Assembly: GCA_001443375.1 (NCBI GenBank)
Contig: LDXM01000004.1
Location: forward strand, 10,089-74,088
Length of the DNA: 64,000 nucleotides
Reading direction: 5' to 3'
From: Chloroflexi bacterium CSP1-4
Lineage (GTDB): Bacteria; Chloroflexota; Limnocylindria; Limnocylindrales; CSP1-4
The position numbers and the translations under genes were made by a program. The notes under the pieces are model-generated. The model saw nothing but the letters and a program-made list of their open reading frames with translations, made no database searches and had not been told where the DNA came from. Positions 8,508 to 25,155 of this stretch are shown here, in pieces; the first letter of the stretch is position 1; each line of letters starts with the position of its first letter.

Positions 8508-9545
8508 ATGGCTGATCGCGTGATGCTCCGGCGGCGACCCTCGAGTGAGATCCTGTCGGGCGAATCGGCCGACGTCTACTTCGCACGCGCCGAGGAGATC
8601 CTGCGTCGAGAGGGTCTCGACCCGATGGTCACCATGGAGGTCTTCGCGCGCCAGGAGGCGGTCCTGTGCGGCATCGACGAGGCGAAGATCCTCATCGCCC
8701 ACGCCCTCGAGAAGGCCGACCCCGATGAGGTCTCGGTGGAGGGCCTCGACGACGGGGACACGATCGCGTCGAAGGAGATCGTCCTGCGCATCCGCGCCCG
8801 CTACCGGGAGTTCGGCCTCTACGAGACAGCCATCCTGGGCATGATGGCCCAGGCGACCGGCTGGGCCTCCGCCGCCCGCGAGTGCGTCGATGCCGCGGCG
8901 CCGCAGCCGGTGATCAGCTTCGGCGCCCGCCACGTCCACCCCGACGTCACCGACGCGCTCGACTACGCCGCGATCGTCGGCGGCTGCGTGGGCGCCTCCA
9001 CGCCGGCCGGCGCGCGTCTCGCCGGCCTCGCCCCGACCGGCACGATGCCCCATTCGCTCGTGCTGATCTTCGGCGACACGGTGAAGGCAGCCGAGGCCTT
9101 CGACCGCGACCTCGGGCCGGAAGTGCCGCGCATCGTGCTCGTGGACACCTTCAAGGACGAGGCCGAGGAGGCGCTGCGCGTGGCCCAGGCGCTGGGCGAT
9201 CGGCTCTACGGCATCCGCCTCGACACGCCCTCCGAGCGCGGCCGGGTCACCGCCGACCTCGTCACCGAGGTGCGGGCGCGCCTCGACCAGGCCGGCTACG
9301 ACAAGGTGCGGATCATCGTCAGCGGCGGCCTCGATCCCGACCGCATCCGCTACTTCAAGGAGCAGGCGGCACCGGTGGACTCGTTCGCCGTGGGGTCGTA
9401 CATCAGCGGGGCCACCCCGGTTGACTTCACCGCCGACCTCAAGGAGATCGATGGCCGCCCCATCGCCAAGCGCGGCCGTATCCCCGGCGTGACGTCGAGC
9501 CCGCGCCTCCGACCGATCGACCTGAGCGCCTGGCGCACGAGCTGA
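8508..9545 (+). CDS. pncB: Nicotinate phosphoribosyltransferase (short form)
   Basis: The 345-residue protein aligns in style with the compact NAPRTase type. FARQEAVLCGIDEAK lies near residue 45, GLYETAILGMMAQATGWAS near 105, ISFGARHVHPD near 145, and a phosphate-binding IVSGGLDPDRI near 270. SFAVGSYISG is near the end. It makes nicotinate mononucleotide from nicotinate and PRPP for NAD recycling. The start ATG follows a roughly 75-base leader with GAGAGGGAG about 25 bases upstream. A second ATG (MLRRRPSS) lies five codons in. Confidence 0.88.
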   Translation: MADRVMLRRRPSSEILSGESADVYFARAEEILRREGLDPMVTMEVFARQEAVLCGIDEAKILIAHALEKADPDEVSVEGLDDGDTIASKEIVLRIRARYREFGLYETAILGMMAQATGWASAARECVDAAAPQPVISFGARHVHPDVTDALDYAAIVGGCVGASTPAGARLAGLAPTGTMPHSLVLIFGDTVKAAEAFDRDLGPEVPRIVLVDTFKDEAEEALRVAQALGDRLYGIRLDTPSERGRVTADLVTEVRARLDQAGYDKVRIIVSGGLDPDRIRYFKEQAAPVDSFAVGSYISGATPVDFTADLKEIDGRPIAKRGRIPGVTSSPRLRPIDLSAWRTS

Positions 9546-9600: not shown

Positions 9601-10020
9601 GTGAGCGTCCCCGACGAAGAGCCCGCGCCCGCAGCCTCCGATGAGGCGCTGCTGGCCGAACTGGCCGAGCGCGAGACCGCCTATGGCCTGCTTCAGCGCG
9701 GCCTCCTCCTCCTCAAGCGTCGCCATCATGCCCAGGCGGCGGTCATCCTCGAACGGGCCAGGCGGCTCGAGCCGGGCAAGGGCTCGATCCTCGAGCCGCT
9801 CGCGCGGGCTTACTACAACAGCGGCCAGATCGAGGCCGCCGCCGAGGCCTTCGGCCACCTGCTGGACCTCGACCCCAGTGCCGCCTACGGCCACTTCGGG
9901 CGGGGGCAGGCGCTGAAGCGGCTGGGCCGGCGGGACGAGGCGCGGACGCACCTGCGCATCGCTGTCGCCCTGGCCCCGGGATCGCGCATCTACCGGAGCG
10001 CCCTCGATCGTCTCGGCTGA
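9601..10020 (+). CDS. TPR-repeat protein
   Basis: A 139-residue cytosolic protein with about three tetratricopeptide repeats, for example ALEPLARAYYNSGQIEAAAEAF and AYGHFGRGQALKRLGRRDEA-type helices. TPRs bind partner proteins; no enzymatic motif is present. It begins at GTG, with CACGAT six bases upstream as a possible weak -10. It follows the NAPRTase gene by 55 bases and converges on the Nudix gene, whose stop is only 26 bases away. Partner unknown. Confidence 0.8.
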   Translation: MSVPDEEPAPAASDEALLAELAERETAYGLLQRGLLLLKRRHHAQAAVILERARRLEPGKGSILEPLARAYYNSGQIEAAAEAFGHLLDLDPSAAYGHFGRGQALKRLGRRDEARTHLRIAVALAPGSRIYRSALDRLG

Positions 10021-10045: not shown

Positions 10046-10618
10046 TCAGAGATTGCCGCGTTCCGCGAGCCGGGCCAGCCAGAAGATGCCCACCAGCGAC
10101 TTCGCGTCCTCGATGCGGCCGGTCTCGGCGAGCGCGAGCGCCTCACGCCAGGGGAGGCGGACGAGGTCGAGGCGCTCGTCCGGCTCGGGACCGTCGTAGC
10201 CGTCGATGGCCGTCAGTTCGGTGGCGAGGTAGAGGGTCATCGCCTCGCTGGCGAAGCCGGGCGCCGTCCAGAACGTGCCCAGCCGGCGCCAGCGCGCGGC
10301 GCGGTGGCCGGTCTCTTCGGCCAGTTCCCGCGGCGCCGCTTCATCCGGTGGCTCGATCGAACCGTCGGGGCGGCGGTCGAGCGTTCCGGCGGGGATCTCG
10401 AGCAGGGCGCGCCCGGCCGGCGAGCGGAACTGGCGGACGAGGAGCAGGTCCTCGCCGTCGAGCGGGATAACGGCGACCGCCCCGGGATGGTCCACGACCT
10501 CGCGCTGGTGGCGACCGCCGCCGGCGTCCTCGACGGTGTCGACGCGGAAGGTGATGAAGCGGCCGCGGTGCACGACGCGCTGCTCGACGGTCGTCTCGCG
10601 CAGGTGGTCGTCGGTCAC
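10046..10618 (-). CDS. Nudix hydrolase, ADP-ribose pyrophosphatase type
   Basis: The 190-residue protein has the AVIPLDGEDLLLVRQFRSPAG strand region and a Nudix box with the core REL.EETG (APRELAEETGH). The box begins at GTLD and carries an insertion of about six residues (PDGSIEP), as in ADP-ribose pyrophosphatases. The likely reaction is hydrolysis of ADP-ribose to AMP and ribose-5-phosphate, housekeeping for NAD breakdown products. This fits the nearby NAPRTase. The GTG start is preceded six bases away by CATACT (10625-10630 on the minus strand), pointing to a leaderless mRNA. Confidence 0.88.
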   Translation of the reverse strand: MTDDHLRETTVEQRVVHRGRFITFRVDTVEDAGGGRHQREVVDHPGAVAVIPLDGEDLLLVRQFRSPAGRALLEIPAGTLDRRPDGSIEPPDEAAPRELAEETGHRAARWRRLGTFWTAPGFASEAMTLYLATELTAIDGYDGPEPDERLDLVRLPWREALALAETGRIEDAKSLVGIFWLARLAERGNL

Positions 10619-10766
10619 GTGCCGAGTATGACAGGGGTCCCGGTCTCGACCGGTACCACCTTCCTATATCGCCCTACGAATCGGCTCTCGATGATGGCTG
10701 AGCCGTCGACCGCCAGGCCGGCGGAGGCGCACATCCGTCTTCACACGGCCATGGAGGTCGCACTCG

Positions 10767-10856
10767 ATGCAGAAGCTCAAGGCACTCGTCTACCGGCTGG
10801 CGCCGGTCCTCGCGGTGGCCGCCTTCGTGGTGCACCCGAGCAGCTGGCGCTGGTAA
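10767..10856 (+). CDS. 29-residue hydrophobic peptide gene with own SD and terminator
   Basis: The ATG is preceded by GGAGGT at 10753-10758 with eight bases between, the best Shine-Dalgarno in this region. The peptide starts MQKLKALVYRLAP, continues with a hydrophobic stretch (VLAVAAFVV) and ends HPSSWRW before TAA. It is thus basic, then one short membrane-spanning segment, then a Ser/Trp tail. An AT-rich patch CTATATC near 10664 may be its -10. A strong intrinsic terminator begins 24 bases after the stop. The unit is therefore complete and separate from its neighbours. Function unknown: a membrane micropeptide or a signal-peptide precursor are both possible. It has no cysteine and no AgrB-like partner nearby. 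Confidence 0.65.
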   Translation: MQKLKALVYRLAPVLAVAAFVVHPSSWRW

Positions 10857-10880
10857 GACCAGGTCCATCCAGACGCATCG

Positions 10881-10913
10881 ACGGCGCGCCGAGAGGCGCG
10901 CCGTTCACGTTTT
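10881..10913 (+). terminator. Intrinsic terminator of the 29-codon gene
   Basis: ACGGCGCGCC (10881-10890) pairs perfectly with GGCGCGCCGT (10895-10904) around a GAGA loop, followed by TCACGTTTT. A ten-base-pair GC-rich stem with a GNRA tetraloop and a T run is a textbook Rho-independent terminator. It also separates the small gene from the SIS gene, whose promoter lies just downstream. Confidence 0.85.
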
Positions 10914-10950: not shown

Positions 10951-11988
10951 GTGGGCCTGAGGGACGAGATCCTCGCGCAGCCCGAGGTGGCCGGGCGCCT
11001 CCTCGAGCGCCAGCGCGTGCCCATGGCCGAGCTGGCCGCGACGCTCCACAGCCGCGAGATCGACTACGTCGTCATCGCCGCCCGCGGCACCTCTGATCAC
11101 GCGGCCATCTATGCCCAGTACCTGCTGGGAACACGCCATCGGCTGCCCGTCGCCCTCGCGACGCCGTCGATCCTGTCGCTGTACGGGGTGACGCCGCGTT
11201 TCCGGCGGGCGCTCGTGGTGGGCATCAGCCAGTCCGGGGCCTCGCCGGATGTCGCGGGGGTGGTCGCGGCCGCACGCGACCAGGGAGCGCCCACCGTCGC
11301 CATCACCAACGACCCGCGCTCGGCGCTGGCGGACGCCGCGGACCACGTCATCGACCTGGGTGCCGGCCCCGAGCGTGCCGTGGCCGCCACGAAGACGTAC
11401 ACCGCGCAGCTGCTGGCCATCGCCCTCCTCTCGGCCGCCCTGCACCGCGACGCCGCGTTCGACGAGGCCATCGCCGGGGTGCCGGAGGCGCTCGGCCGGG
11501 CGCTGGCAGCCGAGCCGGAGGCGAAGCGGATCGCGCGGGACCAGGCCGCCCTCGACCGGTGCGTGGTTCTCGGCCGCGGCTACGACTACGCCACCGCGCG
11601 CGAATGGGCGCTGAAGCTCAAGGAGCTGGCCTACGTGCTGGCCGAGCCGTACTCGGCGGCGGACTTCCAGCACGGCCCCGTCGCGCTCGTCGAGCCCGGC
11701 TTCTCCGTGCTCGCGGTGGCCTGCGGCGGCTCGGCCTCGGCCGACCTGGTGGAGCTCCTGCGCCGCCTTCGCAGCGAGCAGAGCGCCGAGCTGCTGGTCG
11801 TCTCCGATCAGGCCGAGACCCGGGCCCTGGGCAGGTGGTCGCTGCCGGTCCCCGACGGTGTGGCGGAGTCGCTGATGCCGCTCGTGAGCATCGTCCCGGG
11901 GCAGCTCCACGCTTTCCACCTCGCGCGCGCGAAGGGCCTCGATCCCGAGGCCCCGCGCCACCTGCGCAAGGTCACCCGCACCCGCTGA
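10951..11988 (+). CDS. SIS-domain sugar-phosphate isomerase/deaminase
   Basis: The 345-residue protein has two SIS domains like the C-terminal half of glucosamine-6-phosphate synthase: ARGTSDHAAIYAQYLL, VGISQSGASPDV and TKTYTAQLLAIALL in the first, and GRGYDYATAREWALKLKELAYVLAEPYSAADFQHGP in the second. The glutaminase domain is absent. Stand-alone proteins of this build are glucosamine-6-phosphate deaminases (NagB-II/GlmD) or AgaS-like isomerases. It probably feeds amino-sugar phosphates into glycolysis, consistent with the sugar-use genes that follow. The GTG start sits seven bases after TACCCT (10938-10943), suggesting leaderless expression. It converges with the GH13 gene 18 bases away. 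Confidence 0.88.
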   Translation: MGLRDEILAQPEVAGRLLERQRVPMAELAATLHSREIDYVVIAARGTSDHAAIYAQYLLGTRHRLPVALATPSILSLYGVTPRFRRALVVGISQSGASPDVAGVVAAARDQGAPTVAITNDPRSALADAADHVIDLGAGPERAVAATKTYTAQLLAIALLSAALHRDAAFDEAIAGVPEALGRALAAEPEAKRIARDQAALDRCVVLGRGYDYATAREWALKLKELAYVLAEPYSAADFQHGPVALVEPGFSVLAVACGGSASADLVELLRRLRSEQSAELLVVSDQAETRALGRWSLPVPDGVAESLMPLVSIVPGQLHAFHLARAKGLDPEAPRHLRKVTRTR

Positions 11989-13698: not shown

Positions 13699-14814
<1,116 letters not shown>

Positions 14815-14920
14815 GGGCGTGCTCCCATTCGCCCCGCCGGGTCCATCGCGGGCCCTTGCATCCAGCCGCCGAGGCGGAACGTGGACGGGCCCCGTACGTG
14901 GTCAGACGCGGAGTGGCCAC

Positions 14921-24276: not shown

Positions 24277-24708
24277 CTAAACACACGGTCTTCCTTCATC
24301 CTGACACGGTCGCCCAGACCGGAGTCTCAGCGCTCTCCCCCGTCGTCCGCGACGCTCGACGCCGCGCCGAAACCGGCACGACACCCGAGGGTCGGACCGT
24401 CATGTTCGATGACAACTACAGCCCGACCTGCGCCTTCCTATGGTCCGGCCGCCTGTCGCGTGCTGACGACGTGTAGGTTCAACCACGTCTGGAAGCGCTC
24501 GGGCGACCCCGATGCCTACACGGCGCTGTGGAACATCTCCGCTACCCCGGCGTTCCTGCCGGAGGTGACCGATGGCACTTGCCCTTCAGCCAGCGGGGGG
24601 CGGATGCTCGGCGGCACGCGGGGTACATCGACGCGCGACCCACACACTGGCCGCCGGGGCCGCGCCGAGTCACTGGCGAACCCGACCCGCCCGGAGCGGA
24701 GGTGGGTC
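24277..24708. other. 432 bases without a recognised gene inside the decayed element
   Basis: No frame here has a good start and a protein I recognise. The base composition is a little less GC-rich than the neighbourhood at the left end. It is probably degraded cargo of the tRNA-His element. Confidence 0.4.
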
Positions 24709-25155
24709 ATGAACCACATGCACATGGAGACCCGGATCGAGGCGCCCGTCGAGCACGTCTGGGCGTTCTACTGCGACACGTCGCACTGGGAAGACTGGAT
24801 GCCGCGGGCCAAGTGCTCGGATTTCAGCGGGCCGGTGGACAAGGTCGGGACGACGTACGTCGAGACCATGCGGCTCATGGGCTTCGAGATGAAGTCGACG
24901 AGCACGGTGGTCGAGGTGGAGCCGCTGCGGCTCTACCACGAACACACCGACATGGGCCCGATGGACACCTTCATGCGGTTCGAGCCCGACGGCGACGCGA
25001 CCCGCCTGATCCTCGACTCCGACTGGGAGATGCCGGGCAAGCTGCCGGGCTTCATCAAGGACCTCGTGACCAAGGGCTGGGCCGAGCGGAACACCCACCA
25101 GATGCTTGCCGATTTCAAGGCGCTCGCCGAGGCGAAGGTCCCGGTGCCCGCCTGA
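24709..25155 (+). CDS. SRPBCC / polyketide-cyclase-like small protein
   Basis: The 148-residue protein starts METRIEAPVEHVWAFYCDTSHWEDWMP, the standard opening of SRPBCC ligand-binding folds, and has the expected strands TYVETMRLMGFEMKSTSTVVEVEP and a long C-terminal helix. Such proteins bind hydrophobic ligands in a deep cavity or act as cyclases; the ligand is unknown. GGAGGT five bases before ATG 24709 fixes the start, although the frame is open upstream. It is the only intact gene between the two tRNA-His repeats, so it is probable cargo of the integrated element. It is isolated from any pathway. Confidence 0.82.
   Translation: MNHMHMETRIEAPVEHVWAFYCDTSHWEDWMPRAKCSDFSGPVDKVGTTYVETMRLMGFEMKSTSTVVEVEPLRLYHEHTDMGPMDTFMRFEPDGDATRLILDSDWEMPGKLPGFIKDLVTKGWAERNTHQMLADFKALAEAKVPVPA

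Follow-up and report, generated by a model that had tools for sequence, protein, structure and literature searches.

A putative orphan membrane micropeptide in a Chloroflexota genome and its possible link to c-di-GMP signalling

The stretch of Chloroflexi bacterium CSP1-4 DNA analysed here (64,000 nucleotides, referred to as the window) carries a 29-codon frame in the gap between a NUDIX hydrolase gene and a SIS-domain gene (Table 1). Both this frame, with its basic start and single membrane segment, and the Shine-Dalgarno sequence before it are present as described in the first-pass annotation. On both strands of the 64 kb, it is the sole frame combining an ATG start, 22–45 amino acids, a Shine-Dalgarno sequence and a membrane segment (Kyte-Doolittle value of at least 1.9), and no such frame occurs in the reversed window; its occurrence is thus more than expected by chance. 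Downstream of the frame, a perfect 10-bp terminator with a GAGA loop and a T run had been claimed. The hairpin and its loop were recovered, with a stem of 11 bp, but the T run is only a TTTT that begins four bases past the hairpin end and is detached from the stem. The 64-nt stretch containing the hairpin folds with a minimum free energy of -31.9 kcal/mol (z -3.3), the perfect 22-nt hairpin pattern occurs once in the whole window, and GGCGCGCC-like stems also lie 3' of the peptide in two relatives (G062 and G076). A terminator consensus scan of the peptide gap gave no match. Judged from these features and from the comparisons given below, the 29-residue frame is very probably a real translated gene.

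Table 1. Position of the 29-codon gene, its putative signals and its neighbours in the window
Feature	Position	Strand	Basis and remarks
NadC-like phosphoribosyltransferase	8508..9545	+	Pfam QRPTase_N/C; left end of the conserved frame
TPR protein	9601..10020	+	Pfam TPR; part of the syntenic frame
NUDIX hydrolase	10046..10618	-	Pfam PF00293; divergent from the peptide; gene start at 10618
Upstream element GGTAC-N7-CTAT (consensus RGTAC-N7-CYAT)	10652..10667	+	Family consensus and own-genome scan; only exact match in the window
Candidate -10 GATGAT	10690..10695	+	Sits where relatives have CCTAnnnT; tentative
Shine-Dalgarno GGAGGT	10753-10758	+	Sequence; eight bases 5' of the ATG at 10767
29-codon gene, MQKLKALVYRLAPVLAVAAFVVHPSSWRW	10767..10856	+	Frame analysis and positional orthologues; ATG at 10767, TAA stop at 10854-10856; N terminus basic, a single membrane segment, ends in WRW
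11-bp hairpin with GAGA loop, probable terminator	10880-10905	+	Pattern search and folding; weak T tract at 10910-10913
SIS-domain isomerase/deaminase-like gene	10951..11988	+	Pfam SIS; where relatives have DUF5317
MalK-type ABC ATPase	13699..14814	-	Right end of the syntenic frame

Searches of Pfam, NCBIfam and PHROGs placed the window peptide in no family; the first-pass annotation had named no known family with this tail, and HPSSWRW was indeed found in this peptide only. The best library match, over the hydrophobic part, was the morphogenic membrane protein MmpB (NCBIfam NF047320), and membership was rejected because the score of 12.9 bits falls short of the cut-off (34). The tBLASTn search that had been recommended as a check was run in 177 genomes of the class, among which the window's genus is represented by the window genome only, and returned chance matches only, such as L024, antisense to a HAD-like gene. 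Likewise, a DNA search of the peptide gap in 101 genomes gave chance matches only, and a second own-genome DNA match (contig C18) lies inside an unrelated gene. The genomes compared are MAGs, as is the window genome (2.59 Mb).

The neighbourhood of the gene is conserved in relatives. There, NadC and TPR genes are followed by the divergent NUDIX gene, then by the peptide, DUF5317, GAF-GGDEF and MalK genes, single genes being absent or not found in some genomes: NadC stands in the same order in G062, G075, G076, G078, G079 and G106, and in G074 and G106 MalK lies on the far side of the GGDEF gene. The lack of a homologous frame in the syntenic gap had been named as evidence against the gene; seven relatives have an intact frame of 27–29 codons there, with RW at or near its end. 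These peptides, here called N peptides, lie in the gap upstream of the NUDIX orthologue and read MSRIRSILLPLAAIVAFVLVLGAPFRW in G061, MSRTASLALRLGALAAFALVLAAPFRWVA in G062, MTNVRQIALSLVVLAAFVLVVAAPFRWW in G074, MSRFAHLAFRLVVLASFVLVLAAPFRWN in G075, MSRFASLAFRLSVLASFVLVVAAPFRWNL in G076, MASLTSVAFRLVVLSSFVLVLAAPFRWHL in G078 and MSSIKKLVFRLVVLSSFVLVLAAPFRWNA in G079. They have 27–29 residues and an APFRW tail, and those of G061, G074, G075 and G079, which were not in the first alignment, are strong profile matches (E 1e-6 to 1e-13). The NUDIX gene is the divergent neighbour in all eight genomes with the peptide. Inspection by eye of the other NUDIX loci showed no peptide of this kind, and the next gene there is usually close, often PHP-like or MalK-type; orthologues of the SIS gene had no NUDIX gene upstream, on the locus side upstream as fetched. 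Besides, a profile scan of 84,980 named species with a five-sequence set of N peptides retrieved four records, all Chloroflexi/Chloroflexota MAGs (G075, G076, G079 and G078).

In the window, the order is NadC, TPR, NUDIX, peptide, SIS, amylase-like and MalK. The peptide keeps the NUDIX-divergent position, both ends of the frame are kept, and the DUF5317-GGDEF pair is replaced by the SIS isomerase and the amylase; DUF5317 was also not found downstream of the peptide in G078. The description of the gene as free-standing does not hold for its relatives, where the peptide is the first gene of a DUF5317–diguanylate cyclase locus. From gene order and sequence features, the window peptide is probably the positional orthologue of the N peptides.

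The window copy is only 21–28% identical to the other N peptides, and a profile of the seven relatives, built without it, ranks it first of 1024 window segments with an E value of 0.6. Among the seven relatives, differences by codon position amount to 158:101:284 and dN/dS is mostly 0.1–0.5; the N peptides are under purifying selection in these genomes. For the window copy compared with these relatives, dN and dS are roughly equal and differences show no excess at third positions, so that no selection is demonstrated on it; as the distances are near saturation, this value neither proves nor excludes selection. Because the window copy is highly diverged, its placement in the family depends less on sequence than on position and promoter; the features that speak for it are its location, its length and charge, the membrane segment, the RW end and the upstream element.

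Weak profile matches led to further peptides such as MQKLKSQGFRILLILSALASSALVLEAGQRWR (L113), and those of L114 and L116 lie directly behind c-di-GMP-I riboswitches. Two types occur, often in tandem: A peptides, of 28–30 residues, end in LTVGAGMRWY or similar, and B peptides, of 32–34 residues, end in SALVLEAGHRWR or similar (LEAGHRWR end). AG.RW is invariant in both types, the last residue after RW varies, and the family has no conserved Cys. The A and B profile matched in 50 of the 177 class genomes and gave marginal matches only outside the class. Coding constraint is illustrated by a median dN/dS of 0.32 (0–0.1 for the closest pairs), computed with a B set that includes two chance matches. 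Profile comparison gave 93% between N and A, 89% between N and B, and 97% between A and B, scores that membrane segments and hydrophobic composition can inflate. Together, these peptides from soil Chloroflexota appear to form a so far undescribed and unnamed family, whose members are very small membrane peptides with a single helix. The window peptide shares its length range (27–34 residues), basic N terminus, single membrane segment and C-terminal RW; its ending is HPSSWRW where relatives have APFRW(x) or AGxRW(x), and the AP or AG right before the xRW tail is absent (Pro-24 aligns, the preceding Ala does not). Hence, what had been read as an isolated novelty would rather be an orphan, divergent member of a family ending in APFRW or AGxRW.

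Two further observations concern the extent of this family. In genus g19 (L187, L188, L189 and L191), the A frame that precedes B is shortened, with VERF, AEWS or AKWS at its end in place of AGxRW; these A-type frames look as if they were decaying while B stays conserved. Outside the class, L281 (G347, MRFNHKWLRKAGSRVYRASIALASLAALALALGAGTKWG) and L290 (G378, MTRKTRLKLLYFRALLVLGSLASMAMAIGAEDYWD) are possible distant relatives.

An AT-rich -10 candidate had been proposed, which corresponds to CTATAT (10664-10669). By comparison with relatives, this hexamer forms the 3' half of the conserved element GTAC-N8-[CT]AT, which the window gene shares with the RW-tailed family and which, as RGTAC-N7-CYAT, stands upstream of family genes both with and without a riboswitch. 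In 18 loci out of a non-redundant strict set of 28, it is followed, about 23–26 bases on, by the -10-like CCTAnnnT. In the window, GATGAT, whose context CGATGATGGC is common to the window and G062, appears likelier as the -10 than CTATAT, but only tentatively; a sigma-70 consensus scan found no match on either strand of the peptide gap, GATGAT included. The upstream pattern occurs 32 times across the own genome and 38 times in a backward-read control, so that the pattern alone is uninformative and only its position counts. Of 30 own-genome sites examined, two are followed by a frame with a Shine-Dalgarno sequence and a membrane segment, namely those of the window gene and of the riboswitch-linked A/B pair. 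In G106, the diguanylate cyclase gene lies directly behind the promoter element, without a peptide.

The surroundings of the family loci were also compared. A c-di-GMP-I riboswitch was found in 72 of the 177 class genomes and, in a simple frame scan, such peptides followed 30 of 85 riboswitch sites, a count in which a few peptides lack an RW end and some loci were retrieved twice. The aptamers directly upstream of the relatives' peptides are of the Rfam c-di-GMP-I or c-di-GMP-I-GGC families. The riboswitch is not universal within the RW-tailed family, and the gap of the window peptide has no Rfam match and thus not the riboswitch of A and B loci. DUF5317 lies within 3 kb of 32 out of 43 A/B loci and of six out of eight N loci (about 0.5% per locus by chance), and membrane HD-GYP, GGDEF or GGDEF-EAL proteins are encoded beside A, B and N loci. 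This is illustrated by contig C13 of the own genome, where HD-GYP, DUF5317 and GAF-GGDEF genes and a c-di-GMP-I riboswitch are followed by a tandem pair, A (MKANLARFMLFLSAVASMALTVTAGTRWY) and B (MKQHSRYLVFRFLLVMSAIASSALVLEAGKRWN). On contig C96 of G025, a well-conserved B peptide has no DUF5317 detected near it, which parallels the window, where the peptide is kept without a nearby DUF5317.

DUF5317 is recognised as a Pfam family of its own. Its predicted structure, with a mean pLDDT of 55.9, is too poor for a fold search or for judging function, and weak bacteriorhodopsin matches were taken as hydrophobic composition. The long DUF5317 protein of the own genome (L328) is a DUF5317-MFS fusion. 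No mention of DUF5317 and no paper on micropeptides behind c-di-GMP riboswitches in Chloroflexota was found in the open-licence literature; as the search covered open-licence papers only, this is no proof of novelty.

From these comparisons, we tentatively favour the reading that the window gene encodes a translated single-pass membrane micropeptide, an orphaned and divergent positional orthologue within a family tied to c-di-GMP signalling. Against it stands the window copy itself, which has neither the AAPFRW/AGxRW tail, nor a riboswitch, nor a DUF5317 neighbour. The mechanism that could go with it is offered with less assurance still. A regulator binding the GTAC-N8-YAT element would activate the peptide promoter, and in other family members the peptide would be made also when the c-di-GMP-I riboswitch allows. 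The peptide would insert into the membrane with its N terminus inside and its short C-terminal tail outside, and bind a multi-helix partner, for which DUF5317 or a membrane GGDEF/HD-GYP enzyme is the most plausible candidate. As a small regulatory subunit, the peptide would adjust this partner and so feed back on c-di-GMP. Since the neighbouring partners are gone in the window, this copy would either act with a partner encoded elsewhere or be drifting; the DUF5317, HD-GYP and GGDEF genes of the own genome lie on another contig. A broader and rather doubtful proposal is that of a signalling module in which membrane GGDEF/EAL or HD-GYP enzymes, DUF5317 and one or two RW micropeptides under a c-di-GMP-I riboswitch would provide product-sensing feedback at the membrane, the micropeptide being an output subunit or a peptide signal.

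MgrB, AcrZ, KdpF and CydX are small regulatory membrane proteins. The peptides described here resemble them in having fewer than 50 residues, one membrane helix and a place beside, or a possible regulatory action on, multi-helix partners (for CydX as a small membrane protein, see PMC4325964). They differ from them in showing no sequence relation and in their linkage to DUF5317, c-di-GMP enzymes and riboswitch control. The relatives' peptides, directly downstream of aptamers, are also comparable to genes under c-di-GMP-I (GEMM) riboswitches, unlike the window copy, which has no riboswitch.

A secreted peptide signal is the chief alternative, and we consider it unlikely. The peptides would then be precursors of pheromones, with the membrane segment serving as signal peptide and tails such as GMRWY, GHRWR or APFRWN being released, with DUF5317 in processing or export and membrane GGDEF/HD-GYP proteins as sensors. 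The signal-peptide-like layout with small residues before the tail (VGA|G, VLA|A), the invariant RW with a variable last residue, the tandem paralogues and the linkage to membrane sensors and a multi-helix protein would all suit the A, B and other N peptides; the window copy does not fit, its end (FVVHPSSWRW) offering no plausible signal-peptidase site. Moreover, DUF5317 has no known protease or exporter function, and its model (pLDDT 56) is too poor to judge. AgrD and cyclic lactone autoinducer peptides come to mind through their short precursor, amphipathic or hydrophobic leader and multi-helix membrane neighbour of about 190 residues. AgrD identity was rejected, with no match to AgrD or cyclic lactone models at E <= 10 and no conserved Cys; the window peptide has Ser, and no Cys, as a possible ring residue, and DUF5317 was recognised as its own Pfam family.

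It is also unlikely that the window copy is the decaying remnant of an ancestral family member that became functionless in the window through the loss of DUF5317 and the diguanylate cyclase from its locus. The equality of dN and dS, the lost neighbours and the altered tail point that way, whereas the frame, Shine-Dalgarno sequence, upstream element, hairpin and RW end are all intact, and, as contig C96 of G025 keeps a conserved B peptide without detected DUF5317, the loss of neighbours need not mean loss of function. A chance intergenic frame, coincidentally similar to the relatives' peptides, is improbable: the sequence similarity alone is weak and short frames are common in GC-rich DNA, but this is the only such frame in 64 kb, and it sits where seven relatives have a peptide under selection, with the same upstream element and an RW end. 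Least probable is a type I toxin-like hydrophobic peptide of the kind of TisB, Ibs or the C. difficile toxins, whose toxicity would be predicted by analogy: size, membrane segment and basic charge fit, and two type I modules of C. difficile 630 are also linked to c-di-GMP-I riboswitches, but these precede the antisense antitoxin RNAs (PMC7699646) whereas in the present loci it is the peptide that follows the riboswitch, which makes this reading less likely, and two peptides are often co-encoded, DUF5317 and c-di-GMP enzymes, rather than mobile elements, accompany the loci, and neither strand of the gap has a sigma-70-like promoter.

Should the preferred reading of a membrane micropeptide tied to c-di-GMP signalling hold, the family would offer a testable entry into the DUF5317 membrane proteins and into the targets of c-di-GMP-I riboswitches in soil Chloroflexota. 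Genes of 27–34 codons, often in tandem behind riboswitches, would easily be overlooked by annotation despite purifying selection. Besides, the combination of neighbours and promoter provides a validation route for very short genes where direct tblastn fails.

Several minor observations were made along with these comparisons. Other tiny peptides with a membrane segment lie directly behind c-di-GMP-I riboswitches at L146, L148, L150, L170 and L180; their ends differ (ASVRPI, ASVR, GSARI) and they probably represent separate micropeptide families. A third family, exemplified by MKARLVRLAITLGAIAATALAGGATVKGF, occurs at L284, L287 and L288, with L329 and L330, about 2 kb upstream of DUF5317-bearing proteins; at L330, an HD-GYP gene lies between the peptide and the DUF5317-bearing protein, and a palindrome-like element of AGTACTTCGGTACT type lies upstream at L287 and L288. 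The second c-di-GMP-I riboswitch of the own genome (L184, G000:C12:26342-26427) had no RW peptide found downstream. In the window itself, a c-di-GMP-II-GAG riboswitch match (24612-24696, plus strand; 47.7 bits, cut-off 40) lies immediately 5' of an open frame that begins near 24710 and resembles, by eye, an SRPBCC-type protein, and an Rfam malK-III RNA (14812-14911, minus strand; 79.5 bits) lies upstream of the MalK gene.
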